In this document: piece by piece, positions 574-21,771 of the stretch
How positions within the stretch are numbered: position 1 is the stretch's first letter
How the letters are laid out: the number at the start of each line of letters is the position of its first letter
Virus record (IMG/VR): IMGVR_UViG_3300009636_000014
Location: 1-42,957 of that record
Length of the DNA stretch: 42,957 bases
Source: a virus
Direction: 5' to 3' (one strand)
Position numbers and translations under genes: made by a program
The notes under the pieces: generated by a model
The model's input: the letters and a program-made list of their open reading frames with translations, nothing else
Databases searched by the model: none
What the model was told of the DNA's origin: nothing

Positions 574-1134
574 TTATGATAGAAATCTGTTAAAAAATGC
601 TTTATTTCTACCAATCAATTCCTTTCCAGCAAAATTTCTAACGTATTCTCTTTTAACCACATCCCAATTATTTCTCAATACCGCATCTACAAATTTTGGA
701 AATTTGTCAAGGCCACCCAAATTGAAGGAAAAATCTATCAACATTTCTTCTTGTTTTTTAGATAACATTATATCCACTTTATAGGTTGTTTTAATATAAT
801 CGTGGACTCGATGTTTTGCTATATACAGGTCATGATTGAGTAGTTTTTCAGCTGTATTTTGGTGAATACCATGTCTAAAGTTGATAATTTCAGCAGGGTC
901 TAGTTTGTGGCCGTAAGCTATGTGCCACCCCGATTCATCTTTATAGGGAAACCATAAATGTTTCTGTTTATCAAATCCTGCACCAATTGAATTTTCAACC
1001 ATTCGCATATATTCCACAAAGTCAGGAGAAAATTCCTGCTGTTGAATGCTGGCGGCTGGCGGTGGCAATGCCGGCGTTTGTGGCGGTAGTGCTTCTATCA
1101 TAAGTTCCTCAAGAATGTTGTTTAGTTTGATCAT
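574..1134 (-). CDS. T4/GH24-type lysozyme with N-terminal tag
   Basis: 186 residues. After the tag (MIKLNNILEE) and a Pro/Ala-rich linker (residues about 17-30), the catalytic region shows EYMRMVEN, then PYKDESGWHIAYGHKL. This matches the Glu / Asp-x-x-G / IxxGH arrangement of T4 lysozyme (E11, D20, T26 in T4). Such muramidases cleave the MurNAc-GlcNAc bond of peptidoglycan. The Thr of TIGxGH appears replaced by His (HIAYGH), with a loop one residue shorter. The tag and linker are unusual for a free endolysin and suggest a virion-carried enzyme, or one attached to another particle component. The start codon overlaps the stop of the preceding gene (ATGA). The rest of the fold is present (a KKQEEMLIDFSFNLGG helix). 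Confidence 0.75.
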   Translation of the reverse strand: MIKLNNILEELMIEALPPQTPALPPPAASIQQQEFSPDFVEYMRMVENSIGAGFDKQKHLWFPYKDESGWHIAYGHKLDPAEIINFRHGIHQNTAEKLLNHDLYIAKHRVHDYIKTTYKVDIMLSKKQEEMLIDFSFNLGGLDKFPKFVDAVLRNNWDVVKREYVRNFAGKELIGRNKAFFNRFLS

Positions 1135-1577
1135 ACATTCACATAGTCAAAATGTCTATCAGAAAAGTTGATGATTTTGTTCAAAAGGTGCGTAGCATCT
1201 CTGCTTCTTGCATCACGTTTATACACAGCTACTCCCTTATATCCTCTTTTTTTCAATTCTTCCAATGTTTTTTGAAATATTGCTCTTCCAAATCCCAACT
1301 TGGGTTCAGCAACATCAGCATAATATGTAATCAAATAACCTTCAAGTTGGCCTATGTTTTTCTTTGATAATACCATGCCTCCAAAAAATTCTTTATTGCC
1401 ATCGAACAACCCATAACCCATCCCCGCAAACACACCGCTCAGCGGATTGTTATATCCTTCTACGTACATTCTTACAAAAAATCTGTCTGTATCTTCTTTA
1501 ACATCCCATCGTATTTTGGATTGGTCAAATTTTTTAAAATGCTCTATTTCCGATATTATGTTCTTTAGCTTAATCAC
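1131..1577 (-). CDS. GNAT-like acetyltransferase with N-terminal MIKLK tag
   Basis: 148 residues from a GTG start (VIKLKNIISEIEHF). The C-terminal half has a GNAT-like acetyl-CoA loop, EPKLGFGRAIFQKTLEELKKRG, followed by the expected beta strand (YKGVAVYKRDA). The N-terminal strands (RFFVRMYVEGY, KEFFGGMVL) are compatible with the fold but divergent. The first ten residues are a copy of the tag shared by many genes in this window and end in I-S-E. It heads the leftward transcription unit: a TATTTAT box lies 5 nt upstream of the GTG, and the lysozyme follows with a 4-nt overlap. The acetyl acceptor is unknown. The match to the family is weaker than for its neighbour at 1-570. Confidence 0.6.
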   Translation of the reverse strand: MIKLKNIISEIEHFKKFDQSKIRWDVKEDTDRFFVRMYVEGYNNPLSGVFAGMGYGLFDGNKEFFGGMVLSKKNIGQLEGYLITYYADVAEPKLGFGRAIFQKTLEELKKRGYKGVAVYKRDARSRDATHLLNKIINFSDRHFDYVNV

Positions 1578-6425: not shown

Positions 6426-7586
6426 ATGGCATGGACAGGCGACCCAAATAATCCAGTACCAAACATTGGAAATGCAAAATCCGATGTCAGCCAAAAACTT
6501 GCGCAGGATTCAGATGTTCTCAGTGAGAAACTTCATGATATTAACCGTGCTAAACAGGTGCGTCGTGATACGGACAAACAAAAAGACAATACGGTTACTT
6601 TGATTGATATTGATAATGCTGTATTGGCCCAATTACAAAAGTTTCAACTGACCGTCAAAGGTACATCAGAAATTAAGGTTCCCATTTATTACGCAAGTCC
6701 TGAAAAATGGAAATCAATACAGTATGATGGTGTCATTCGTGATTACAATGGTAAAATGATTTTACCTGCTTTGGTATTTCAAAGGACTACCTCTGAAAAA
6801 GACACAGCCATGATGATGTTTAATCGTTATTTGACTTATCCTGTAATGAGAATCTATTCTGAAAAAAATCGTTATACTCCATTTGCAGCTCTTGTAGGTC
6901 AAAATGTTCCTGTTCATGAAGTTTATGACATTATAATGCCTGACCACATGGTATTCACTTATCATTTTATTGTTTGGACAGAATACATTGAACAAATGAA
7001 TACCATCATTGAACGCATCAACTTTGAAACTGAGGATTATTGGGGAGACTTAAGAGGATTAAGATTCAGAACAAAGATAGATTCATTTTCTCACACATCA
7101 GAACTGCAAGTGGACCAAGACCGAATAGTAAAAACGGAATTTGATTTATTGGTCAATGGTTATCTATTGCCTGATGTTATTGACAGATTTCAAGGCAGAA
7201 GAGACACCACACAAAAATGGTTTACTCCAAAGAAAGTTGTCATGGGAATGGAAGTTGTTGGAACAGATTTCAAGATGCGGTCTTTAAACAAAGATAAAAA
7301 TAAATGGAGAAATCAAAAGTATCCAAATTTACAGAAAGACGTTGTTATAAATTCTCCGCCTACTGATTGGGAAGGCGATGTATCCATTGAATTATTGAGT
7401 AATCTTAAATTGGTTGTAAATGTTTCCTCCAATAAAGTTATACCTTCGCCGGGAATTCAATATGAAGCCGTTCCATCCTCTCCCAATAGTCCCGGTGTAG
7501 AAGGAAACATGGCATATGATAATAATTATTTGTATGTTTATACAAAAGGTGTGTGGAAAAGAATGCCCTTGGATTTGTTCGGATAA
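6426..7586 (+). CDS. Tail-completion/terminator protein, T4 gp15-like candidate
   Basis: 386 residues. Residues about 72-92 (QKFQLTVKGTSEIKVPIYYASPEKW) followed by LPALVFQRTT resemble the N-terminal domain of gp15-type tail terminators, where an IKVPI-Y strand precedes the subunit interface. The middle has TYHFIVWTEYIEQMNTIIE. The C-terminal 70 residues look like an add-on, with a P-S-P-rich stretch and YDNNYLYVYTKGVWKRMPL, a small beta domain common at the end of phage virion proteins. gp15 caps the finished tail and stabilises the sheath. It lies after the neck genes and before the sheath, as in T4. The call rests on order plus moderate sequence resemblance. Confidence 0.4.
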   Translation: MAWTGDPNNPVPNIGNAKSDVSQKLAQDSDVLSEKLHDINRAKQVRRDTDKQKDNTVTLIDIDNAVLAQLQKFQLTVKGTSEIKVPIYYASPEKWKSIQYDGVIRDYNGKMILPALVFQRTTSEKDTAMMMFNRYLTYPVMRIYSEKNRYTPFAALVGQNVPVHEVYDIIMPDHMVFTYHFIVWTEYIEQMNTIIERINFETEDYWGDLRGLRFRTKIDSFSHTSELQVDQDRIVKTEFDLLVNGYLLPDVIDRFQGRRDTTQKWFTPKKVVMGMEVVGTDFKMRSLNKDKNKWRNQKYPNLQKDVVINSPPTDWEGDVSIELLSNLKLVVNVSSNKVIPSPGIQYEAVPSSPNSPGVEGNMAYDNNYLYVYTKGVWKRMPLDLFG

Positions 7587-7597
7587 TTATTTATTTT

Positions 7598-8878
7598 ATG
7601 ATTTACAATCCTAATGACGTATTAATAACTCAAAGAAATTCCACAAGTTCCTCATTTGTTGAACAGGTTCTTTCCTCTTCGGCAAACTCTGTGGTATTAT
7701 TTGATTCAACCGCACATTTGATATCTTTATCAACTCAAAGTTTTTTAGCAAATAGTTTAAAAAGTCTTACATCACATTATATTCCAAAATGGGAAACAAG
7801 TTCTTTGGTAAATTCTAGGATTACTGACGATGGAACCGATTTAACTATTACTGTGGGCGACGGTTCCGGTAGTGGAGTTATTCGACTGAATAATAATGGC
7901 GGAAACGGAATATATTTGGATAATGATTCTCTTATTTCGATAGGTGGAGATGCAGCGGTAAACATAAATTCAACTAATATAGTAAGTGTATTTGCAGGCA
8001 GCGCATCGTTCAGCAGCCCAAACAATATAGCATTAGGAAGTCCAATAATAAACATGTATGGTGCTGTTGTTGTACAAGAAAACTTTGATCAATCATCTGA
8101 TGCATTACAGATTCAAGATAATAATTCAAATGTATTATCCAGAATTGATATTAATGGAAATATAAGTTGTTCCAATGCTTATACTACCGCAAGTTATGCA
8201 GTAAGTGCAAGCGTTTTATCTCCATCATTTATTAATGTTCCAAATGGGGTTGCTGGATTGGACTCAAATGATAATCTATCAGGTGTTGTTATTCCATTAC
8301 AAGACACACAACAAAACCTTGGTGGTATAGTGCCAGCAAGTGGCCAATTTGTTTATGCTATTGATACTAAAGCTTCTTTTATAGGCGACGGAACAAGTTC
8401 CATTGCTCCAACTTTTGTAAGTCAATCAATAACTAATTTAGCCCCGTTGACACGATTTAGTCCTTTAAGCGGAAGTGGTGTTGACGGATTAGGAAAGGTA
8501 GGCATTGCTTCTTCGTTCAGCTATTCTTGGCCTGTTATGTTTCAAAATGGTGTAGGGTCGTTTGTATTATATCAACTTCCAAACGATGCAACTATTAAAA
8601 CTATGTTAGCAAAAATTACTACATTTGTATGGGAAGGTGAAGATGCTTATGACGAATTACATATTGATACTATTGGAGCATATTGGGCAGGCACTTGGAT
8701 ATATTCCAGTTCGTCAAGGCATATATCATCTTCAGCTGCAAACAATACGTATAATTACACGGCTTCATTTAATACGTTAACCCGTCAATTACTTATAAAT
8801 TATAATAATGCAACAAGTTGGGCATCTCCAGCAATAATAAAGCTGGAAGTGGATATAAGTAATAATACAAGTCCATAA
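7598..8878 (+). CDS. Tail fibre / adhesin protein
   Basis: 426 residues from the ATG at 7598 (MIYNPNDVLITQRNST); upstream in-frame starts lie inside the previous gene. The N-terminus is related to those of the fibre proteins at 10134, 13796 and 15260 (N-x-V-x-x-x-R-N/D pattern, then a hydrophobic strand). The body is Ser/Thr/Asn/Gly-rich, with beta-helix-like stretches (GVIRLNNNGGNGIYLDN, LQIQDNNSNVLSRIDINGN) and a short TASYAVSASVLS segment of the repeat type that fills the 10134 protein. The C-terminus is a beta-rich head with aromatic strands. It is probably part of a host-binding fibre. A TATTTAT box lies only 3 nt before the start. Confidence 0.7.
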   Translation: MIYNPNDVLITQRNSTSSSFVEQVLSSSANSVVLFDSTAHLISLSTQSFLANSLKSLTSHYIPKWETSSLVNSRITDDGTDLTITVGDGSGSGVIRLNNNGGNGIYLDNDSLISIGGDAAVNINSTNIVSVFAGSASFSSPNNIALGSPIINMYGAVVVQENFDQSSDALQIQDNNSNVLSRIDINGNISCSNAYTTASYAVSASVLSPSFINVPNGVAGLDSNDNLSGVVIPLQDTQQNLGGIVPASGQFVYAIDTKASFIGDGTSSIAPTFVSQSITNLAPLTRFSPLSGSGVDGLGKVGIASSFSYSWPVMFQNGVGSFVLYQLPNDATIKTMLAKITTFVWEGEDAYDELHIDTIGAYWAGTWIYSSSSRHISSSAANNTYNYTASFNTLTRQLLINYNNATSWASPAIIKLEVDISNNTSP

Positions 8879-8881
8879 ATT

Positions 8882-10081
8882 ATGAGCATAAAAATAATTT
8901 CTCCACAATTATCTTCGTCTTTGATTGCTGAATCGGTTAAAGAAGATTTTGGTCTTGCCGCAACGCCAGTAACAACTTTATCGGGGTCAACATCCAGTTC
9001 ATTATCCAAAAGTTTGGATGTTATTTATAATGTTGTCAATACACCCAAAAGCACCACCACCGCAACACTGAATATTAATGTTCCATTCGGTGCCACATAT
9101 ACGGCATCTTACAATAATTTAACACCATCTATCGCTAATTTCACCGCATCAACGCAAACGTATGGTTATATCACTGATGGCACAGCAAGTATAAATGTGA
9201 TGGTGGGAAATAGAACCAAAAACATTCAGTCACTAATATCACAAAAATTAAACACAACCGTTGCATTGTTTTCTTCGTATGTGACCAATTCTTTGGCATA
9301 TAACATTTATTTTTCAGGGAGTGCAAGTATATCAGGATTGGCACTAAATCCAACCACACAAAACATTTACTCATCAACAAACGATACTACTTTTACTTAT
9401 GTAAGGAATACTGCTTCGTGGGTCAGTGGTATTAATCAAACGTGTGTTCCGGTTTATTCCAATACTTCAGGCCAAGTATATAATGGTATGTTGGTAACGC
9501 CTGATATATTGATATGTGCCAATCACGCACCACATAGTACCGGTGATATACTATATTTTCTTGACAACAATAATACCACAATAAGTAAATCCATTATTGG
9601 AACTTCAAACATTGTTGGATCAGATATATTAGTGGCAAGATTTAGTTCGAGTTTATCTAGTAGTATAAAACCAGCAAGAATACTTCCAAGTTCATCCTAT
9701 CAAGGGCACTTAGTTAATTTATCAACGCAGGCACAACTAGCAACCCAAGTTCCGTGTGTGTGGTTTGACCAATATAGAAAAATAAGGATTGCCTGTATAA
9801 ACACGATGCAACTTCCTACATCATTCGTCTATTTTTCACCGCCATCAGGCAGTAGTCCGTTTTTTCCGTGGTATGTTACACCTATCGGTGGAGACAGTGG
9901 TGCGCCCCTATTTTTTATTATTAATAATGAATTGATAGCCATAGGTGCATTATTTACGCCTGCTAATTTACCGGGTATTTCAAGTTTTACATCCCAAATA
10001 AATTCCACTATAATAGCGTTGGGAAGTACCAGCAGTTTAGTTACCATGAGTTTGTCTGCATTTCCAACCTATTCACAATAA
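8882..10081 (+). CDS. Fibre protein with C-terminal trypsin-like serine protease domain
   Basis: 399 residues. The first about 190 are Ser/Thr-rich fibre-like sequence. The C-terminal half has the three landmarks of a chymotrypsin-fold (clan PA, S1-type) protease in the right order: LVTPDILICANHAPH with His215 (compare TAAHC), VGSDILVARF with Asp248 (compare DIAL), and PIGGDSGAPLFF with Ser339 in GDSGAP. The spacings (33 and 91 residues) are near the family's usual values. The expected substrate is protein: either cell-surface protein during adsorption or the fibre itself (autoprocessing). No signal peptide is visible. It lies among fibre genes and is separated from the previous one by 3 nt. 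The triad is seen directly; activity is inferred. Confidence 0.7.
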   Translation: MSIKIISPQLSSSLIAESVKEDFGLAATPVTTLSGSTSSSLSKSLDVIYNVVNTPKSTTTATLNINVPFGATYTASYNNLTPSIANFTASTQTYGYITDGTASINVMVGNRTKNIQSLISQKLNTTVALFSSYVTNSLAYNIYFSGSASISGLALNPTTQNIYSSTNDTTFTYVRNTASWVSGINQTCVPVYSNTSGQVYNGMLVTPDILICANHAPHSTGDILYFLDNNNTTISKSIIGTSNIVGSDILVARFSSSLSSSIKPARILPSSSYQGHLVNLSTQAQLATQVPCVWFDQYRKIRIACINTMQLPTSFVYFSPPSGSSPFFPWYVTPIGGDSGAPLFFIINNELIAIGALFTPANLPGISSFTSQINSTIIALGSTSSLVTMSLSAFPTYSQ

Positions 10082-10133: not shown

Positions 10134-12680
10134 ATGCCGATTTCAAACACTAATCCAAGTTCAAATGAAGTTGTAATGATACAACGTGACCCCACGAATA
10201 GTGTTTATCAAGAGGCACACATTTCAGGTTCGGGTTTAATCATTCATATCAATCCTAGTGGCAGTCTTGATGCAGATACTTCTGCGTCGTTTTTTGCAAT
10301 CTATCCTGTACCAACCGCGAGTTATTCAGGAACTTCAAGTTACACCATCACGTCTTCCTATGCAATAAATGGTGGTACAAACTTGATCACAGCTTCAACG
10401 TATCCAATTACAGCAAGTTACTCCATTACAGCTTCGTTTGCAATGAATGGTGGCGGTGGAGCTAACGGGTCTGCTTCATGGGCAAGTTCGTCGTTTTTTG
10501 CAACTTCTGCTTCCTATGCAGGAACAGCAAGTCTATTATTGGGGTCAATTTTTAGTGCAATTTATGCAACATCAGCTTCATGGGCAAGTTCATCAGTAAG
10601 TGCAAGTTATTTACTTAATATATCAAATTCGATATCTGCTTTAACAGCGAGTTATGCCATAACTGCTTCTTATGCAATAAGCGCGTCTTATGTTCCAACT
10701 GCTTCTTATGCAATTACCACATCATTTTACAATGGAACTGCTTCTTATGCACTTAGTGCATCATATGTTTTATCGGCTAGTTGGGCAATGACTGCCTCAT
10801 TTTATAACGGAACTGCGTCATATGTAATAAGTGCAAGTTACGCGCCATCTTCGAGTGTAGCTGTAACTTCATCATATACTCCAACGGCATCATATGCTAT
10901 AAGTGCATCATATGCTATAACCGCAAGTAGAGCAATAAGTGCATCGGTTGCCCAAACAGCTAGTTTTACAGTAAGTTCATCGTATGCCAATAGTTCATCG
11001 TATGCTATGTCATCTAGTTGGGCAATTACTGCTTCATATTATAATGGAACAGCTTCTTATGTATTAAGTGCATCATATGCGCCAACAGCTAGTTTGTCTG
11101 TAACCGCGTCATATGTTGTATCATCCAGTTGGGCTATAAGTGCATCGTATGTTCCGACTTCAAGTTGGGCCATTACCGCATCGTATTACAATGGAACAGC
11201 TTCTTATGTATTAAGTGCATCTTATGCACCTACTGCAAGTGTTGCCGTGACTGCTTCATATGTCCCAACCGCATCTTATGTGGTCAGTGCATCATTCGTT
11301 CCAACCGCAAGTTGGGCAATGACTGCATCTTTTTACAATGGCACAGCATCTTATGTAATTAGTGCAAGTTACGCACCAACAGCAAGTTTAGCAGTTAGTA
11401 CATCTTTTGCACCGACTACAAGTTTTGCAATTACTGCATCGTTTGCACCTACGTCGAGTTGGGCCATTTCTTCGTCATATTCTATCAGTTCATCACACGC
11501 CATTACTGCAAGTTATGCGGTAACGTCTGCCTATTGTTCAGGAACATCATCCATAGCTATTACTGCATCGTATGTTCCGACTTCAAGTTTTGCAATCACT
11601 GCATCATATTATAACGGCACCGCGTCCTATGTTTCTACTGCATCGTATGTTCCAACTGCAAGCTGGGCGTTGACTGCATCGTATGTCCCTACAGCTAGTT
11701 GGGCAATCACTGCATCGTATGTTCCAACAGCAAGTACCGCAGTTACGGCTTCTTATGTTCCTACTGCAAGTTGGGCAATCACTGCCTCATTTTATAACGG
11801 AACCGCGTCATATGTATTAAGTTCAAGTTACGCACCGACAGCAAGTATGGCTATAAGTGCATCATATATTTTCACTTCCTCCTATGCAATCACTGCCTCC
11901 TACGTTCCAACTGCAAGTTGGGCAATGACGGCATCATATGCACCAACATCATCATATGCTTTATCAGCAAGTTATAGCATAACATCGAGTTGGGCCATCA
12001 CTTCATCATATGTTCCAACAGCAAGTTGGGCAATGACAGCATCATATGCTAACACTTCATCATACGCTATAACATCAAGTTTAGTGCTTACCGCATCGTA
12101 TTACAATGGAACTGCATCATATGTGGTAACTGCATCCTACGCACCCACAGCAAGTTGGGCCATCACTGCGTCATATTATAGTGGAACAGCTTCGTATGTA
12201 TTAAGTTCAAGTTATGCACCAAGTGCATCATATGCAATCAGCGCATCAGCAGCTAGTTTATCGTTATACATAATTTCTGCATCATATGCTCTGACTTCAT
12301 CTTGGTCGCCGGGGTCTAACGCATCTGTGAGTTCATCTTGGGCAAGCGCATCCATTAGTTCAAGTTACGCTCTGACTTCCTCTTGGTCACCGGGTTCTCA
12401 AGCCTCCATAAGTGCATCTTGGGCATCAAGTTCAATGGGAGCAGATTTTGCGGTTTTAGCTGCCACAGCTATGACAGCATCATACACGTTATTTATAACA
12501 TCATCATTTATATCAACATCATACGCTTCTTCGTCAACATTTGCTTCGTCTTCATTAGCCGCAGATATATCGGAACTATCTGTATTTGCTGTGAGTTCAA
12601 GCTATACAGTTACAGCTAGTTTTGCTCAAAACGCCGCAGGTGGGGCATCAAGTATATTGGCCGTTCAAATTTTCAGTTAA
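10134..12680 (+). CDS. Hexapeptide-repeat tail fibre protein (ASYxxT repeats)
   Basis: 848 residues. The N-terminal about 55 residues (SNTNPSSNEVVMIQRDPTNS) form a putative attachment domain related to other fibre genes here. Residues about 60-830 are dominated by a six-residue unit [TS]-A-S-[YWF]-[AV]-x. Every 30-60 residues a seven-residue variant with YNGT or YSGT interrupts the array (about ten times), giving a higher-order period. The C-terminus is short (SSILAVQIFS). A regular aromatic-Ser-Ala hexad suggests an extended beta-structured shaft, but the fold is not certain. Similar ASY-rich proteins occur in environmental phages. It precedes small fibre-associated genes and may be the long tail fibre shaft. 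Confidence 0.75.
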   Translation: MPISNTNPSSNEVVMIQRDPTNSVYQEAHISGSGLIIHINPSGSLDADTSASFFAIYPVPTASYSGTSSYTITSSYAINGGTNLITASTYPITASYSITASFAMNGGGGANGSASWASSSFFATSASYAGTASLLLGSIFSAIYATSASWASSSVSASYLLNISNSISALTASYAITASYAISASYVPTASYAITTSFYNGTASYALSASYVLSASWAMTASFYNGTASYVISASYAPSSSVAVTSSYTPTASYAISASYAITASRAISASVAQTASFTVSSSYANSSSYAMSSSWAITASYYNGTASYVLSASYAPTASLSVTASYVVSSSWAISASYVPTSSWAITASYYNGTASYVLSASYAPTASVAVTASYVPTASYVVSASFVPTASWAMTASFYNGTASYVISASYAPTASLAVSTSFAPTTSFAITASFAPTSSWAISSSYSISSSHAITASYAVTSAYCSGTSSIAITASYVPTSSFAITASYYNGTASYVSTASYVPTASWALTASYVPTASWAITASYVPTASTAVTASYVPTASWAITASFYNGTASYVLSSSYAPTASMAISASYIFTSSYAITASYVPTASWAMTASYAPTSSYALSASYSITSSWAITSSYVPTASWAMTASYANTSSYAITSSLVLTASYYNGTASYVVTASYAPTASWAITASYYSGTASYVLSSSYAPSASYAISASAASLSLYIISASYALTSSWSPGSNASVSSSWASASISSSYALTSSWSPGSQASISASWASSSMGADFAVLAATAMTASYTLFITSSFISTSYASSSTFASSSLAADISELSVFAVSSSYTVTASFAQNAAGGASSILAVQIFS
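10305..12640 (+). repeat. 18-bp coding repeat array (ASYxxT hexads)
   Basis: The array encodes well over 100 copies of a six-codon unit. Amino acids are strongly conserved but codons are not: Ser in the ASY core is written both as AGT and as TCN, and Ala as GCA, GCT, GCG or GCC. Longer local near-repeats surround the YNGT units, such as the about 60-nt blocks near 11040 and 11180. Confidence 0.85.
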
Positions 12681-12697
12681 ATACCTATATATCACAT

Positions 12698-13054
12698 ATG
12701 GCTACATATTCTAAATTACTTTTAAGTGGGTCTGTTAATGGACAACAAATAAAAATAACCACCGCATCGGGTTCAGGATATACGCCCCTGCATACGGCTG
12801 TGAGTGGAACCGGGTCTTTGGATGAAATATGGTTATATGCTTATAATGATGCTACCGCAAGTGTATTAACAAGTATCCTGTGGGGTTCTACGACTGAACC
12901 TGATGCTGTAGTTCGATTTACCTTACCATCCAAAGTTGGAAGAACATTGGTTGTTGATGGAAAATTACTTCAAAATTCACTTACAGTATCGGCTTACGCG
13001 TCGGTTGCAAATGTTATAATGTTCGATGGATTTGTAAATAACATTGGACCTTAA
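12698..13054 (+). CDS. Small conserved fibre-region structural protein
   Basis: 118 residues (MATYSKLLLSGSVNGQQIKI), beta-rich and compact: an N-terminal GSxNGxxIKI strand pair, LDEIWLYAYND, VRFTLPSKVGRTLVVDG and a C-terminal NVIMFDGFVNNI. This is a recurrent small phage virion protein type, usually found beside fibre or tail genes, but its exact role is not known to me. Candidates are a trimerisation, decoration or fibre-tip protein. It follows the repeat-fibre gene by 17 nt, with a CTATATAT sequence 7 nt before its start. Confidence 0.5.
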   Translation: MATYSKLLLSGSVNGQQIKITTASGSGYTPLHTAVSGTGSLDEIWLYAYNDATASVLTSILWGSTTEPDAVVRFTLPSKVGRTLVVDGKLLQNSLTVSAYASVANVIMFDGFVNNIGP

Positions 13055-13055
13055 T

Positions 13056-13790
13056 ATGAGTATCCACACGTTACATAAAGGCGGAAGAAGATATTCTTTG
13101 AATGATTATTCTACAGGGACCTCTTTGCTTCCATCTGATATAAACGGATTGGTTTATTGGTTTAAAGGAAATGACATTTCAGGAAGCCAAGGTACTCATA
13201 TTAGTAATTGGCCTGCTGCCTATGGTACCACAATACTAACACAAAGCTTGGTCTCTGCACAACCACAATTAGATTTTACTTATTTTGGCGGGCTTCCATC
13301 TGTAAAATTTGATGGTTCACAACAATATTTTAATTTCAGTTCTACATTTAGTGCTGGTAATACTTTTACCATGATGTTTTTTATAACTCAACCAACTACG
13401 GCTTCACTACAACTATATGCATCTACAGCAGCTAATTATCAAGTAAGAATTGGAAATAATATGTGGACGTATGATACTTCAAATTCTACTTTTTCAACTA
13501 ATAATCTTAATTCACCAATGACAAATAGTTCAAAAATGATTACTGCTGTAAAACCCACGATAACCACCATAAATTGGTATGATAGTACAACTTCTATCGG
13601 TGGGGGTGGGTGTCGTTCGATGTCATGGTTTTATCTTTGCCACCCTTTTGGTAGTGATACCGGCACTTGGTTTAACGGCGCTATTGCTGAGGTACTAATA
13701 TGGAGTACTAATTTAACATTTTCACAACTAACCCAATTACATGATAATTACTTTAAGATAAAGTATGCATCGGACTTAACATTTACATAA
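13056..13790 (+). CDS. LamG/concanavalin-like virion protein (carbohydrate binding?)
   Basis: 244 residues from the ATG at 13056 (MSIHTLHKGGRRY), one base after the previous stop. From residue about 29 the sequence has the shape of a LamG/ConA-like jellyroll: GLVYWFKGNDISG, then GLPSVKFDGSQQYFNF, an alternating-strand core, and a terminal FNGAIAEVLIWSTNLTFSQL, where AEVLIW-x(n)-S-x-x-Q-L is typical of the last strand and helix of these domains. Such domains bind glycans or proteins and are common in tail fibres and tailspikes. The N-terminal basic leader differs from the other fibre proteins. A receptor-binding role is likely but not proven. Confidence 0.6.
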   Translation: MSIHTLHKGGRRYSLNDYSTGTSLLPSDINGLVYWFKGNDISGSQGTHISNWPAAYGTTILTQSLVSAQPQLDFTYFGGLPSVKFDGSQQYFNFSSTFSAGNTFTMMFFITQPTTASLQLYASTAANYQVRIGNNMWTYDTSNSTFSTNNLNSPMTNSSKMITAVKPTITTINWYDSTTSIGGGGCRSMSWFYLCHPFGSDTGTWFNGAIAEVLIWSTNLTFSQLTQLHDNYFKIKYASDLTFT

Positions 13791-13795
13791 ATATT

Positions 13796-14365
13796 ATGGC
13801 TTTAGTTTATTACCCAAAAAGCTCAATAATGTATCGCAGAGATACACAAAATACCAACGGTCTTTATGAAGAATTAGTATTGAATTGCTCTCCGGATGTT
13901 GTATTATATTTTGACACGTCATCTGTATCAAGTGTTCTTTCTGCATCAGTCTTAATAATCGGTGTGTCATCAAGTTATGCATCAACATCTAGTGTTGCGT
14001 TAAACGCCTTAAATGCTGCTTCCGCAGGTAATTCATCTTCTTATTCAACAATTTTTACAAGTTCAACAAATTGGATTACGGCAAGTTTTTCAGGGTCACA
14101 AACTCAATGGGTTAACATAACCCAATCAGGAAGTTACAATTTTACCGCATCCAACATTCCACCAGCAGGAAACAGTCAAAGTGCTGATGTTCTTGTTTAT
14201 ATCAATAATACCGCTACACAAACATCTTCCTTGGTATTTCCTTCGTCTTGGATTAATGTTGCTTCAACTTGGCCAACATATATATCTGCTAGTAAAAATG
14301 CAGTGGTATGGTTGAAGGGATTTGATAATAATACAATTATAGGCACTTGTAATATTCAGTTATAA
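13796..14365 (+). CDS. Fibre-associated protein sharing N-terminal domain with 15260 gene
   Basis: 189 residues. The first about 65 (MALVYYPKSSIMYRRDTQNT, then a strand ending VVLYFDTSSV) match the N-terminus of the 482-residue protein at 15260 (MAILYYP, R-x-T, ILNNNPSTVFYFGTGS). A Ser-rich SSSYASTSS segment follows, then a small beta domain at about 100-189 with WITASFSGSQTQWVNI and VVWLKGFDNN. Two genes with the same N-terminal module and different C-terminal domains suggest a common docking site on the tail and exchangeable ends. It lies 5 nt after the LamG-like gene. Confidence 0.6.
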   Translation: MALVYYPKSSIMYRRDTQNTNGLYEELVLNCSPDVVLYFDTSSVSSVLSASVLIIGVSSSYASTSSVALNALNAASAGNSSSYSTIFTSSTNWITASFSGSQTQWVNITQSGSYNFTASNIPPAGNSQSADVLVYINNTATQTSSLVFPSSWINVASTWPTYISASKNAVVWLKGFDNNTIIGTCNIQL

Positions 14366-14368
14366 TTT

Positions 14369-15250
14369 ATGAATCCAATGTTTTCACAACAAATTGTAGC
14401 AGGTAATGTTAGTCCTGTAGTAGTTGATTGGGTGAATAGAGTTCAGAAAAACGGTGGAGCAAAACCAAGTCAAAATACCATTGTGGCGGTTAATGATTTT
14501 TATCATAACATAGCTTCAACTACCATTTTGGGAAAAGTAAAGTCATTAAATTGTTATGTTCCAGATAATGTGATTGCGGCTATAACACCGTTAATCAATA
14601 CCGTTGGACGCGACCCTTGGTTAAATAACAATAATCAATTTGTTGCAGCAGATTTAACTATTAATGGATTGAAAGGGAATGGTAGTGACCAATTTAATAC
14701 ATCAGTTGTGAAATTTTTAGATACGGGAGTTTCGGGGTCAAATTATTCGAATGATAATACTGCTGGTCTTACTGTATATGCTTACACCACGGGCCTAAGT
14801 GCCGACGCTGGAACATATGAAGCTGGTTATACAAACGATGATGGAAGTGATGGAGCTTCTATATCATTTCATGATAATAATGCTAATATTTTTCGTTTTT
14901 GGGCATTTAATCTTAATAATGGGGGTTGTTTATTTAGTTCTACGGGTAGTGGTTATTTGTCAGGAAATCGTATTTCTTCAACGGATATGAGAATGTATTT
15001 CGCCAATGCATCCATTGCACACTCACAAGTGGCAATAAATACTGGTCTAAATACAGGAGCAAGAGCCGCACATAATATATTTGTTCATGCTGTATATCAC
15101 TGGAATGCTGGTGGTTTGGTTACATTCGGTGCCTCTCCATCCAGACTATCATTTGCGGCAATTCATGATGGTTTAACATCAAATGAATCAGGTCAATTTT
15201 TCAGTTTTATTCAAGCATATCGTCAACAAATTGGTGGAGGTTGGGTATAA
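14369..15250 (+). CDS. Fibre-region virion protein, unknown (conserved phage type)
   Basis: 293 residues. The N-terminal about 60 are helical (VVDWVNRVQKNGGAKPSQNT), followed by KVKSLNCYVPDNVIAAITPL and GLKGNGSDQFNTS. The rest is strand-rich with a FRFWAFNLNN core and ends in the helix GQFFSFIQAYRQQIGGGW. I have seen this arrangement in many tailed phage fibre clusters, but no function is established. A jellyroll-like adhesion domain in the C-terminal part is possible. It lies between the two genes with the shared YYP N-terminus. Confidence 0.5.
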   Translation: MNPMFSQQIVAGNVSPVVVDWVNRVQKNGGAKPSQNTIVAVNDFYHNIASTTILGKVKSLNCYVPDNVIAAITPLINTVGRDPWLNNNNQFVAADLTINGLKGNGSDQFNTSVVKFLDTGVSGSNYSNDNTAGLTVYAYTTGLSADAGTYEAGYTNDDGSDGASISFHDNNANIFRFWAFNLNNGGCLFSSTGSGYLSGNRISSTDMRMYFANASIAHSQVAINTGLNTGARAAHNIFVHAVYHWNAGGLVTFGASPSRLSFAAIHDGLTSNESGQFFSFIQAYRQQIGGGWV

Positions 15251-15259
15251 TTATACGTT

Positions 15260-16708
15260 ATGGCAATACTTTATTATCCAGCAGGAAATTTTTTGGGAGC
15301 AAGAAACACGGCTAATCCGGGGTTTGAACAAATTATTTTGAATAATAATCCCAGTACAGTATTTTATTTTGGAACGGGTTCAGGAATAAATGCCGTTACT
15401 GCATCAATGATGTTAATTACATCATCATATTCTACCACTTCATCTTGGACATTTGCATCAATCTCATCTTCGTATGCGAATTCTGCTTCTTTTGCAAATC
15501 AATCAATTAGTTCAAGTTATGCTAGAAGTGCCTCGTGGGCACCGGGGACAACATCAAGTTCTTACAATTATCAAACAGGTTCATATACGTTACAAAATGG
15601 AGATTTAGGAACAAATGTTGTGGTAAATTCTTCTTCATTTTCCATAATAACAATTCCATCAGGATTATCTTCTTCATTTAACTGTAAATTTTATCAAAGT
15701 GGTTCAGGAAGAATAGTTTTCACAGGGTCATTAGGAGTAAACATAAGAAGCGTAAACAACGTATTTTCATCCGCCGGGCAGCACTCAACCGTTAATCTTT
15801 ATATAGGTAAAAGCGGAGAATATATCCTAGAGGGAGATTTGGGTGACTTTAACGCACAGTTAGTTGGATGGGAAGATTTTTCATCATTAACTCCCGGCAA
15901 CTACACTAATACGGGGTCAGGATTAATTTTTACAACTGCCTCATTATGGCAATCATCGTGTATTACAGGCTCATTTTTTGTTGGTAGCGGGTCAGGATTT
16001 CATCTCAGTTCTAATAAATTGGCAACTTCACAATCCATAAATTATGTTCAATTTACAAGTTCCAATGTTTACTTTGGTAAAATGTTAAATGGAAATAATT
16101 ACAATGTGGTTAGAATTGGGGCATTAGGTGCTATGCCGGGAGGAACAACAACAGGTGGAGTAAATTCTTCTATGTTTCTTGGTTTACAACCGTGGACAAG
16201 TAGTACCAATCAATACATAATATACATACAAAACTTTACATTTTACAATGCTCCTGCACCTGATGCGTGTTATGTTCCTAATACATCAACGGGATATAAT
16301 GGTGGTAGAAATGTTAATGGGTCGTTTTCAGATAGTACACCTAAAACATTGGGTGGAGTTGTAACGCCGTCTTATATGGGTATGCCTATATTTGTTTCAC
16401 CAAGAGCAGGATTTATAGGTATGCAATTTAACAAGACAACGGGTAGTCTTTGGTCAATAATAGCATATCAAGGATATACTGATTTTGATTATACATATGA
16501 AGATTTAAGAATATGGTTGGAAACAGGTAGAATGAATAAGCCATTTTCAAGAGCTGTCCAGCCGGGCGTTTATACTACTACTATTTCAGAATCTTTTGGC
16601 CTTTTGGATACAGCTACGTTTAATTGGGCAACTAATCCCGGCGGAACCGATGCAAATACAAAACCAATGACATTTTATGCTTTTGGTGCAAGTAATTGTA
16701 TATATTAA
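15260..16708 (+). CDS. Tail fibre / adhesin with YYP N-terminal docking domain
   Basis: 482 residues. N-terminal docking-type domain (MAILYYPAGNFLGARNT, FEQIILNNNPSTVFYFGTGS), then a short Ser/Ala/Tyr repeat stretch (SSYSTTSSWTFASISSSYAN). A predicted beta domain at about 110-190 (LQNGDLGTNVVVNSSS) resembles the small sandwich common in fibres. From about 205 a larger domain begins (WEDFSSLTPGNYTN) with a carbohydrate-binding-like character and ends FNWATNPGGTDANTKPMTFY. It is the last gene of the fibre cluster; a 48-nt gap follows. It is probably a receptor-binding protein, and the domain plan parallels that of 13796. Confidence 0.65.
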   Translation: MAILYYPAGNFLGARNTANPGFEQIILNNNPSTVFYFGTGSGINAVTASMMLITSSYSTTSSWTFASISSSYANSASFANQSISSSYARSASWAPGTTSSSYNYQTGSYTLQNGDLGTNVVVNSSSFSIITIPSGLSSSFNCKFYQSGSGRIVFTGSLGVNIRSVNNVFSSAGQHSTVNLYIGKSGEYILEGDLGDFNAQLVGWEDFSSLTPGNYTNTGSGLIFTTASLWQSSCITGSFFVGSGSGFHLSSNKLATSQSINYVQFTSSNVYFGKMLNGNNYNVVRIGALGAMPGGTTTGGVNSSMFLGLQPWTSSTNQYIIYIQNFTFYNAPAPDACYVPNTSTGYNGGRNVNGSFSDSTPKTLGGVVTPSYMGMPIFVSPRAGFIGMQFNKTTGSLWSIIAYQGYTDFDYTYEDLRIWLETGRMNKPFSRAVQPGVYTTTISESFGLLDTATFNWATNPGGTDANTKPMTFYAFGASNCIY

Positions 16709-17156: not shown

Positions 17157-20100
17157 ATGCCAATACAAGAAGGTGGTACATTTAGCCCGGACAGAAACGT
17201 TGTGTCGCCCGGCGTTTTCACAAGAGAAAATAATCTGTCAGGTATAGCAGCGGGCGTTGCTAACATCGGTGGTGCAGTTGTGGCTCCATTTGCCCAAGGT
17301 CCAGCCTATTCACCAATAATTCTGACAGACGTGAATACATTAGCGAACATGTTTGGTAATCCCGACGGTGTTTATTATGGTCCCTACACCGCAGCTCAAT
17401 ATTTACAAGAACAGGGAATCGTAACGATTTGCAGAGTCGGTGGGTTGACAGGTTATCAGCAAAATTACCCATTTGCCCTATGGGCAGTAAAAGGTGAATG
17501 GAATGAAAATGAATCCGAAGGCGCTTTGAATAGTGCCGAATCATTTGTATATTTTTCAGGTAGTGTTACCAATCCAACGTATTCTTATGCTGAATCCATC
17601 ACTTTCGTAAACACCAATTACAGTTCTTCCGCGACAAAAGTATTCAATATTGGTGGTGGTACTTCGGCTACACAATCAATATCAAGCTCATTTACCCAAA
17701 GTGTATTAACCATTAATAATCCAACCGTCACAATTACTTTTGCTGCCGGCGCAGCCGATGATACGGCTTTGAATCCGAATTCGACCAGCGGTAGTATTTT
17801 GTATTATGGACAAACAATTTCATTGGGAACAGCCAATGTAATTTACGCAAGTGCAAGTTTATCCACAGTTTTGACTTCTTCGACGATAGTTACTTCACCG
17901 TCGTCTTCGACAGTTTATATCAATTATGGTGTCAATACATCATCATTTTCATCATCAATAGCTAATGGAACATTTTCCGCTTCGATTATCAATCCTTCAT
18001 CGGTATTTTTCCCGTTGGGAAGTTATCCTTGGGGTGGTTATGAAGCAGGTGTTGCAACCACTTTGGAATTTATCAGTTCCTCTTTGACGGTAAACTTGGG
18101 AACTTGTGGTTTTCCAACTATCAATTTAAGTGGTGTCATTACAGGTACTTTTGGTAATTTCAATGGCACATTCACAAGTCAAGCTTCAACCTTTAATCCG
18201 TGTATCCTGCCAAACGGCGCATGGACGGGAAGTGGTGACATGAGATTACTTGCTGTATTAGCAGACACCGAAGCAGGCGGCATTCAAAATCTTGTCGCTC
18301 CGGGTTTCTATGGTTCCACATTAAGTATGACGAACCCGATTACCGGTAGTGGTGTCAATGTTATTCCACTTAATTACAGTCTGACATTAAAGAACAGTAA
18401 TAGTTCGACACCTTACGGAATTTATCAATTTTCATTAAATAGTGAAGACCCAAGTTACATTACCAATGTTTTTGGTCATGTTCCTACAGTGGGTAATCCA
18501 GCCAAACAAGTTGCTGGTCAAAAGATTGAGGCAGCATATCTATATTCAATTTATGAGGATACTATTGCTGAAGTTGTTGATGAACGCGATCTTTGGATGA
18601 TTGTCGGCGCAGCCCTTCCATCAGGTTCGTTGGCAGGCGCGCCGATGAATTTCACCGACCAATATTCATTTGCTCCATCAACGGGTGATAGTGCATTTTC
18701 AATTCAAGAGGCGGTCACTCCTTGGGTACTTTCCCAAGCCATTGCTTCCTACAATAGTGGTTCAGCTCCACACAGATTTGAATTGTTCAAAATCCACACC
18801 ATTGCTGATGGAACTTATACAAATACTCAATTTAAAGTTCAAATTAGTAATGTGAAGTTGGCGGGTACGGTTGCAGGTAGTGATTGGGGTTCATTTACCC
18901 TTACACTTCGCAAATACAGTGATACTGATAAGCGTCCTGTCATTGTTGAACAATACAATAATTTGAACCTTAATCCTGACGACCCGAACTATATTGCTCG
19001 TATAATTGGTGACATGTATAGTTACATCAATTTTAATGGCAAAGTTATAGAGTTCGGAACCTATCAGAATAATAGTAAAAATATCAGGGTGGAAATGACG
19101 ACTAACACTTATCCTGTGTCGGCTCTTCCTTATGGATTTGAAGCGTATGTCACACCAACAAACGGTGCCATGAGTTATTGGACGCCAACAATGAAATACA
19201 CCAAGGCATCAGTTTATGGGTTGAATCCGGGCAAGTATCCATCAGGCATCACCTTTAACGATGCTCCTACAGGTGCAGATGCTGAATTGTTCAGTTTGTA
19301 TCCACAAACAGGTTATCCAACCGTAACAGGAGTTGGCGCGGCGGAGAATAATGCACAATACATGGCTCCAATTCCATCATTTAATACGAGTGGTGTAACT
19401 TACTTGAGTACGGGAAGAAACACCATATTTGCTTTGGATTTGGATTATGAAGTATATGGTGTAAGCACCGGTTCCTTCCTTCCAAGCGGTAGCAATGCTA
19501 TTCCTGTAATATATGACCCTGTAAATGAACCAACCTATGTCAAAATGAGAAACTTTGTATTCGGTTTCCAAGGTGGTTTTGATGGTCAAAGTCCAGCCAT
19601 TCCAATCAATGTCGGTGGTGATATCATTGCCGGTAACACTCAAGGTTTGGATTGCACAACCGTCAATTCTGCAGGTTCAATTGGATATAATCAAGCTATT
19701 ACAGCCCTCAGTAACGCTGACCAATATGACATTAATCTTATTGTGACTCCGGGTATTATCTACGAAGAACACCCATATGTCACCAACTTGGTTGTTGACA
19801 TGTGTGAGGCTCGTGGGGATTGTTTTTATATTACAGATTTTTATGTGGATGAAGGCAATCCATCTAACAGTCAGATTACTCAGGTTGTTGGTTATGCAGC
19901 TGAATTTGATACAAGTTATGCTGCAACCTATTATCCTTGGGTTAAAATCCTTGATACTTACAACAATTTGATTGTCACCGTTCCACCATCTGTGGTGTTG
20001 CCGGCAGTTTATGCCAATAACGACAAGGTGGCGGCCGAGTGGTTCGCGCCAGCCGGTCTAAACCGTGGTGGTATTCCAATCGCTACTCAGGTAACGGACA

Positions 20101-20543
20101 GAACTACACACGAAGACCGTGACGCGTTGTATGAAGGTAAAGTCAATCCTATTGCATCATTTCCGGGTTCCGGCATAGTGGTGTGGGGACAAAAGACATT
20201 GCAAAATGCCAACAATGCTACAAACAGAATCAACGTTCGCAGATTGTTGATTAACATCAAGAAATTTTTTGCTTCAACTTCACTTTATTTGGATTTTGAA
20301 CAGAATGTGGCTTCTACCCGCAACAAGTTCTTGAGCATTGTAAATCCATATTTGGAATCAGTGCAACAAAGGTCGGGTCTATACGCCTTCTTTGTCAAGA
20401 TGGACGATACGAATAACACACCTGATATTATCGATCAGAATATACTTTATGGGCAGATTTATTTGCAGCCAACCAAGACGGCGGAATTTATCATCCTTGA
20501 TTTCAATATTCTGCCAACGGGTGCAAGTTTCCCTAACGCATAA
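17157..20543 (+). CDS. Tail sheath protein, T4 gp18-like
   Basis: 1128 residues, much longer than T4 gp18 (659). The N-terminus NVVSPGVFTRENNLSGIAAG, the repeated A-P-F-A-Q-G-P/YSPIILTD pattern, and the C-terminal region (INVRRLLINIKKFFASTSLY; then LDFEQN, VMPL-like strands and AEFIILDFNI at the end) are typical of contractile tail sheaths. The extra length is mainly a Ser/Thr-rich beta insertion at about 120-370, with more in the middle, probably surface-exposed. Sheath subunits polymerise around the tube and contract on infection. It has its own promoter-like box upstream and a terminator downstream, consistent with high expression. Confidence 0.93.
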   Translation: MPIQEGGTFSPDRNVVSPGVFTRENNLSGIAAGVANIGGAVVAPFAQGPAYSPIILTDVNTLANMFGNPDGVYYGPYTAAQYLQEQGIVTICRVGGLTGYQQNYPFALWAVKGEWNENESEGALNSAESFVYFSGSVTNPTYSYAESITFVNTNYSSSATKVFNIGGGTSATQSISSSFTQSVLTINNPTVTITFAAGAADDTALNPNSTSGSILYYGQTISLGTANVIYASASLSTVLTSSTIVTSPSSSTVYINYGVNTSSFSSSIANGTFSASIINPSSVFFPLGSYPWGGYEAGVATTLEFISSSLTVNLGTCGFPTINLSGVITGTFGNFNGTFTSQASTFNPCILPNGAWTGSGDMRLLAVLADTEAGGIQNLVAPGFYGSTLSMTNPITGSGVNVIPLNYSLTLKNSNSSTPYGIYQFSLNSEDPSYITNVFGHVPTVGNPAKQVAGQKIEAAYLYSIYEDTIAEVVDERDLWMIVGAALPSGSLAGAPMNFTDQYSFAPSTGDSAFSIQEAVTPWVLSQAIASYNSGSAPHRFELFKIHTIADGTYTNTQFKVQISNVKLAGTVAGSDWGSFTLTLRKYSDTDKRPVIVEQYNNLNLNPDDPNYIARIIGDMYSYINFNGKVIEFGTYQNNSKNIRVEMTTNTYPVSALPYGFEAYVTPTNGAMSYWTPTMKYTKASVYGLNPGKYPSGITFNDAPTGADAELFSLYPQTGYPTVTGVGAAENNAQYMAPIPSFNTSGVTYLSTGRNTIFALDLDYEVYGVSTGSFLPSGSNAIPVIYDPVNEPTYVKMRNFVFGFQGGFDGQSPAIPINVGGDIIAGNTQGLDCTTVNSAGSIGYNQAITALSNADQYDINLIVTPGIIYEEHPYVTNLVVDMCEARGDCFYITDFYVDEGNPSNSQITQVVGYAAEFDTSYAATYYPWVKILDTYNNLIVTVPPSVVLPAVYANNDKVAAEWFAPAGLNRGGIPIATQVTDRTTHEDRDALYEGKVNPIASFPGSGIVVWGQKTLQNANNATNRINVRRLLINIKKFFASTSLYLDFEQNVASTRNKFLSIVNPYLESVQQRSGLYAFFVKMDDTNNTPDIIDQNILYGQIYLQPTKTAEFIILDFNILPTGASFPNA

Positions 20544-20624: not shown

Positions 20625-21197
20625 ATGAACCCTGATACCAATTTGCCCCACTCGACACCACCAAAAAGGGGCGGTGTGAGATTAAACGTTAGAGGGGCGG
20701 GAGCATTAATTTTAGCCAAGGACACAGGTAGATTGCTATTTGCTTTTCGTATTGCTGACCGCCATACACGACCACATCTTGTATGGAATTTGTGGGGTGG
20801 ACCAGTAGAATCGAATGAAAATCCCGAAACGAGTGTAGTGCGATGGTCAAAAATTCAAACAGGTTATAAAGGGCAATTTGCTGATGTAATACCATTATAC
20901 ACATTTTTCAATAACCAAACAAATTTTAGATACCATAATTATTTGTTAATTGTAGAAAATGAATTTTGGCCAAGTTTAGACAGAAAGTTAACGGAAGACT
21001 ATAAATGGGTCGAATATGGAAAGTGGCCGGACCCCCTTTATCCAACAGTCAGTGCCTTACTTCGTGAAAAAGGGCCTGAAATTATAAAAATAATTGAAAA
21101 GAATGCCATCAGGGAAAGTCTCTTATTAAAGGGTAACATAATTAAACTAAAAGATATTATAAAAAATATGATTTTGAGTGAGAAAGTGATTTATTAA
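20625..21197 (+). CDS. Nudix-fold protein with lost catalytic box, C-terminal tag
   Basis: 190 residues. The Nudix fold is recognisable: GAGALILAKDTGRLLFAFR opens the domain and WGGPVESNENPE-TSVVRWSKIQTGY occupies the Nudix box position (residues 59-81). The canonical G-x5-E-x7-REUxEExGU is kept only at Gly59/60, Glu65, Arg73 and Gly80; the metal-binding glutamates of REUxEE are replaced (R73-WSKIQ). Hydrolysis of a nucleoside diphosphate is therefore unlikely, and ligand binding is more probable. Near the C-terminus is IIKLKDIIKNMILSE, a copy of the tag that is N-terminal in other genes. A close paralogue follows at 21199. Confidence 0.65.
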   Translation: MNPDTNLPHSTPPKRGGVRLNVRGAGALILAKDTGRLLFAFRIADRHTRPHLVWNLWGGPVESNENPETSVVRWSKIQTGYKGQFADVIPLYTFFNNQTNFRYHNYLLIVENEFWPSLDRKLTEDYKWVEYGKWPDPLYPTVSALLREKGPEIIKIIEKNAIRESLLLKGNIIKLKDIIKNMILSEKVIY

Positions 21198-21198
21198 T

Positions 21199-21771
21199 AT
21201 GGATTTTCTTGATACCAAACCGCGTTCAAATTTGCCAAGTTCTAGTCCGCCAAGACGACTAAATGTGAGAAGGAACATCAGAGGGTCAGGCGCTTTAATA
21301 TTGGCAAAAGACACAGGCCAATTATTATTTGCTCTTCGGGCTAGCCGATACGTTGGTCCTGAAAGACCGCGTGAATGGAATTTATGGGGTGGAAGATTGT
21401 ATCTTCATGAAAGCCCTGAAATGGGTGTAATTAGAAATGCAAAAGAACAAACAGGTTATAAAGGAAATTTTGAAGACGTAACACAACTGTATTCATTTAT
21501 AAGCCTTTATACAAATTTTAGATATTATACTTATTTGTTGACGGTGGAAAATGAATTTACACCAACCATAGATAGAAAATTGATAGACCATTATCAGTGG
21601 GTGGAATATGGAGATTTTCCATCGCCCCTTCATCCCGCCGTTAAAACGTTACTTGACAGAGCAGGTCACAAAATAAAAAATATAATCGATAAAATTTTTC
21701 TTAAAGAAAGTCTTGCAGACGGCACCCCTCATTCAATTAAATTAAAAAACCTAATAAAAGACTTGTGGTAA
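21199..21771 (+). CDS. Nudix-fold protein with degenerate box, paralogue of 20625
   Basis: 190 residues, similar to the preceding protein along its whole length (NLPSSSPPRR; GSGALILAKDTGQLLFALR; WVEYGDFPSPLHP). The Nudix box region 65-87 (GRLYLHESPE-MGVIRNAKEQTGY) keeps Gly65, Glu71, Arg79, Glu83 and Gly86, but RE becomes RN and the second Glu of EE becomes Gln84. That loses most of the metal site. The C-terminus ends SIKLKNLIKDLW, a tag copy without the final Glu. The start is one base after the preceding stop. Either weak catalysis or binding only is possible. Confidence 0.65.
   Translation: MDFLDTKPRSNLPSSSPPRRLNVRRNIRGSGALILAKDTGQLLFALRASRYVGPERPREWNLWGGRLYLHESPEMGVIRNAKEQTGYKGNFEDVTQLYSFISLYTNFRYYTYLLTVENEFTPTIDRKLIDHYQWVEYGDFPSPLHPAVKTLLDRAGHKIKNIIDKIFLKESLADGTPHSIKLKNLIKDLW

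Follow-up and report, generated by a model that had tools for sequence, protein, structure and literature searches.

The phage tail enzymes described to date mostly cut glycans or peptidoglycan. A gene in the viral DNA analyzed here (a stretch of 42,957 nucleotides, referred to as the window) raises the question of whether a tail may also carry an active protease and, if so, whether this protease would cut a protein of the host surface or a protein of the virion itself. The sequence-only reading of this gene had proposed a tail-fibre protein with an intact trypsin-like catalytic triad behind a fibre-type N-terminal half, acting either on a host-surface protein or in self-maturation of the fibre. 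Translation bore out the triad, as the open reading frame (ORF) is intact and the motifs ICANHAPH, SDILVARF, and GGDSGAPL place His215, Asp248, and Ser339 in this order in a protein of 399 amino acids (Table 1). The ordered motif goes beyond chance, since none of 20,000 protein shuffles reproduced the H..D..GDSGxP pattern and GDSGxP occurs in a single segment among all six-frame segments of the window. A second IMG/VR contig encodes a protein that is 100% identical, and it agrees with the window at 13,850 of 13,915 bases.

Table 1. Features of the protease gene, its product, and its surroundings in the window
Feature	Position	Strand	Description
Protease CDS (P0001)	8882..10081	+	Intact ORF, 399 aa; Ig-like domain and trypsin-like protease
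Ig-like (Big_2-type) beta-sandwich	8951..9280	+	Residues ~24-133; AF2 strands E24-E133
Helical/extended linker	9281..9427	+	Residues ~134-182; AF2 helices H138-150 and H157-160
Trypsin-like (chymotrypsin-fold) domain	9428..10078	+	Residues ~183-399; AF2 pLDDT mostly >95
Catalytic His215 codon	9524..9526	+	His in 189/189 covered rows; pairs with the catalytic His of 1fn8
Catalytic Asp248 codon	9623..9625	+	Asp in 193/193 covered rows; pairs with the catalytic Asp of 1fn8
Asp338-Ser339 (GDSG)	9893..9898	+	S339 in 196/196 covered rows; D338 in 195/196
gp15-like tail terminator	6426-7586		Weak match
Fibre-like gene	7598..8878	+	N-terminal motif common with other cassette genes; candidate carrier of the protease
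Remaining fibre-cassette genes	10134..16708	+	Between the gp15-like tail terminator and the tail sheath gene
Tail sheath gene	17157-20543	+	PHROG sheath match

Structure prediction strongly supports the assignment as a trypsin-like protease. With a 100-sequence alignment of the family, AlphaFold2 predicted a chymotrypsin-like fold with a mean pLDDT of 90.8 and a pTM of 0.81; with the single sequence, the pLDDT was 30.5. The best PDB matches found by Foldseek were chymotrypsin and trypsin (E value of ∼1e-7, probability of 1.0), with moderate TM-scores by target of 0.5 to 0.6. The best folds being chymotrypsin-like, neither a beta-helix nor another glycan-active fold was found for this protein. 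A profile of the family matched the Fusarium trypsin 1fn8 (E value of 6.5e-4, columns 193 to 371) and, column by column, put the His, Asp, and Ser residues on the catalytic columns of that enzyme; Asp338-Ser339 corresponds to Asp194-Ser195 of chymotrypsin. Searches of the PDB by phmmer with the protein alone and with a two-sequence profile found no protease, and the window protein itself had no significant match to the Pfam trypsin family, which was matched by 9 of 100 members at E values of up to 1 (best, 7.3e-5). Together, the prediction and the conservation described below make a trypsin-like fold with a complete triad well supported. Like trypsin and chymotrypsin (MEROPS clan PA, family S1; PF00089), the window protein combines a predicted double-barrel fold with the His-Asp-Ser order and GDSGxP. 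Unlike them, it is too diverged for a Pfam match, does not contain the I-V-G-G activation motif of S1A zymogens, and is fused to an Ig-like domain and encoded in a phage tail module. Among viral proteins, A0A6J7XEP5 from an uncultured Caudovirales phage was the best full-length fold match (E value of 4.8e-21, 22% identity); it is uncharacterized, with no function assigned.

The N-terminal half turned out not to be of the fibre type, as had been supposed. It is predicted to form an Ig-like beta-sandwich, and its sequence gave a weak Big-like match in the Pfam search; with this part, the family profile also finds the Big_2-type repeats of PDB entries 9ifo/9pt5, and 12 members of the 100-member set match Pfam Big_2. 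The protein contains no fibrous repeats. It also does not contain the N-terminal motif that is common to the cassette genes at 7598-8878, 13796-14365, and 15260-16708 (and weakly to that at 10134-12680), so that "tail-module protein" is a better name for it than fibre; it is an Ig-like domain joined to a protease and not itself a fibre. The linker between the two domains holds a near-invariant YVRN motif, with Arg at position 175 in 156 of 164 covered rows and Asn at position 176 in 159 of 164. Big_2, Big-like, and PKD modules are found at the N termini of members. One member (L006:1319-3523, minus strand) has a long insertion near its C terminus, which by our own reading is LamG/lectin-type in appearance.

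The family to which this protein belongs is large. The first homologue scans, run before a DNA motif was used, returned only the near-identical contig or nothing. Scanning IMG/VR with a degenerate DNA motif for GDSGxPxFxIxN yielded 67 stretches, nearly all of them homologues (L021, L024, L032, L037, and L058 were chance matches), and a second scan yielded 172 stretches that encode relatives; 80 of these were retained. Relatives are present on well over 100 IMG/VR contigs and at 42 loci in a scan of GTDB bacterial genomes; plasmids gave no match. The phage collection contained one homologue, in the Manatee Spring podovirus (MW202510.1), which is 27 to 28% identical and keeps all three residues. 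MT835675.1 was rejected as a homologue, as its match is confined to 127 residues at the N terminus of a PKD-containing query segment taken from L050 and does not include the protease. Pfam and PHROGs gave nothing above threshold for the window protein and no significant match for representative members, and no NCBIfam family was common to more than three members; a family absent from these resources as searched is now given a concrete annotation. Three loci (L049, L013, and L034) and contigs identical to them carry the protease gene twice, in diverged copies, and in L049 and L013, a fibre-like gene lies between the two copies.

Conservation was counted over 197 aligned domains, with each column scored where it was covered, and each residue of the triad was present in every covered row (Table 1). 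Four columns of the 100-sequence alignment are invariant: H215, D248, D338, and S339. The search patterns fixed much of the GDSGxP context around Ser339 and forced neither His215 nor Asp248; because these two residues were absent from all search patterns, their conservation is independent evidence. The relatives are under purifying selection, with a median dN/dS of 0.22 in 78 comparisons of close pairs, which are not independent of each other because many involve near-identical contigs.

In the window, the protease gene starts 3 nucleotides (nt) past the end of the upstream fibre-like gene on the same strand (for the latter, we chose the ATG at 7598; the mechanical ORF begins at 7553). The N-terminal motif of the fibre-cassette genes is a candidate docking module. 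Nearly all of the 848-amino-acid cassette protein encoded at 10134-12680 (plus strand) consists of degenerate TASYA/SSYA-type repeats, and the tail sheath protein is unusually long (1,128 amino acids), with the PHROG sheath matches in its second half. Elsewhere in the window, one end of about a dozen ORFs bears a short peptide that is nearly identical among them. It is MIKLKxLLxE-like where it stands at the start and IKLKxIIK-like where it stands at the end, or else LKRLIKE-like; the ORFs include those at 574-1134 and 1131-1577 (both on the minus strand), 4632, 4952, 5302, 5969, 20625-21771, 21787, 22116, 27908, and 40668. Their cargo comprises lysozyme, GNAT acetyltransferases, and NUDIX proteins, and the peptides resemble those by which internal head proteins are targeted to the capsid in phages of the T4 type.

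The surroundings of the relatives, which come mostly from short contigs, are similar: 102 of 113 adjacent genes lie on the protease strand, the upstream fibre-like gene often overlaps or abuts the protease gene, as in the window, and the neighbours match PHROGs for tail-fibre, tail-spike, tail-assembly, and virion structural proteins. Upstream of the homologue in Anabaena lutea FACHB-196 are a gene for a major head protein and an abutting tail-fibre gene, and in Luteolibacter pohnpeiensis, a tail-fibre gene lies two genes upstream; both regions look like prophages. The homologue in MW202510.1 adjoins a gene annotated as rhamnogalacturonan lyase. When the neighbours at 75 non-redundant loci were clustered, no virion partner common to most loci emerged; the largest common cluster was present at 18 of the 75, and its members are diverse fibres of the repeat type, whose genes often overlap or abut that of the protease. 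The gene neighbourhood thus points to a tail location for the protease, and of the name "tail-fibre protein," the tail part is supported by the fibre and tail gene clusters here and in the relatives, whereas the fibre part is not.

The more distant matches in bacterial genomes are proteins of ∼250 to 300 amino acids, almost all from Verrucomicrobiota, and several have a lipobox-like signal. These stand-alone proteins (L169 to L192) have a homologous catalytic domain with the triad but differ from the phage proteins in their length, their signal, and their position in a clade of their own. In a tree whose bootstrap is not fully settled, whose root is arbitrary, and some of whose branches are long, 19 of them fall into a single, fully supported group. 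These proteins look like exported lipoproteins.

What such a protein would do in the phage can be explained in several ways. The protease could serve self-maturation by cutting itself, for example between Arg175 and Asn176, or by cutting a neighbouring fibre during assembly, with no host substrate involved. The near-invariant Arg175-Asn176 lies between the Ig-like and catalytic domains, 40 residues ahead of the catalytic His and at about the position of the activated N terminus of chymotrypsin; the invariant Asp338 is the counterpart of the chymotrypsin residue that pairs with the freed N terminus, and the protease gene adjoins a fibre-like gene, all of which would fit such processing. We speculate that Arg175 is either cleaved or uses its side chain in place of the N-terminal amino group, and the latter would require no cleavage. 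Against self-maturation, no common virion substrate is visible, since the fibres encoded nearby vary from phage to phage and there is no partner that most loci have in common, and the Verrucomicrobiota relatives are stand-alone and lipoprotein-like. We therefore consider self-maturation unlikely as the function of this protein.

The gene could instead be an accessory gene derived from a host, with a product that is absent from the virion and works within the infected cell or outside it. Related genes do occur in Verrucomicrobiota genomes, and a trypsin-like serine protease without a tail assignment has been listed in an alphaproteobacterial phage cluster (PMC10783043), but the window protein has no evident signal peptide (its N terminus is MSIKIISPQ), its gene shares the strand of the tail operon in which it lies and is separated from the preceding gene by 3 nt, and the relatives adjoin structural genes, which makes this origin improbable. 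A trypsin fold might also be used for binding or docking only, as in UmbA of the Streptomyces umbrella toxins, structures of which (8w20) are among the Foldseek matches. UmbA shares the trypsin fold, there as part of a particle that attaches to bacterial surfaces, and its trypsin-like domain leaves the partner that it binds uncut (PMC11062931). The triad of UmbA is incomplete, however, and activity was not detected (PMC11062931), whereas every covered member of the family described here has the triad; because the triad is universal, we set a binding-only pseudo-enzyme aside as highly improbable.

We favour an active trypsin-like protease on the virion tail that cuts a protein of the host surface, and we put the probability of this reading at about 0.6. 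The protein would be a catalytically competent serine protease of the trypsin/chymotrypsin fold that has an Ig-like domain at its N terminus. It most likely belongs to the tail module of a T4-related myovirus and would sit at or close to the tip of the fibre whose gene lies directly upstream. During adsorption, it would cut a host-surface protein, such as an adhesin, a surface layer, a sheath, or an exposed outer-membrane protein, and thereby play for protein the role that tail depolymerases play for glycans. We infer the presence in the virion, the carriage by the upstream fibre, the enzyme activity, and the host-surface substrate. Between the two functions left side by side in the sequence-only reading, the indirect evidence lies with attack on the host surface, since no virion partner is common to most loci, since the relatives combine this domain with Ig, PKD, and lectin-like modules, and since the cellular relatives appear to be exported lipoproteins.

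Such a protein would share with the phage tail depolymerases its place as a tail-module enzyme that clears the host surface, and the genes lie in the same kind of cassette; those enzymes are glycan hydrolases or lyases, whereas this one would cut protein and has a predicted chymotrypsin fold instead of a beta-helix. Serine protease activity is also linked to phage fibres in the Peptidase S74 intramolecular chaperone, an autoprotease at the C terminus that uses a Ser-Lys dyad, but no S74 match was among the families listed for the window protein or the other members.

In the open-access literature, we found no description of a trypsin-like tail protease. It is tempting, although somewhat short of an even chance in our estimate, to see in this family a widespread and undescribed class of phages with an active trypsin-like tail protease directed against a host-surface protein, with the exported lipoprotein proteases of Verrucomicrobiota as a sister family. 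That every sufficiently complete member keeps the triad suggests that many phages have a tail protease. The family can be tested in cultured carriers with the gene in phage-like regions, such as L. pohnpeiensis and A. lutea. So broad a family of tail-module proteases may mean that many environmental phages face a protein barrier or expose their receptors by proteolysis, and if this is true, proteolytic tails would stand as a general counterpart to the glycan depolymerases already known.
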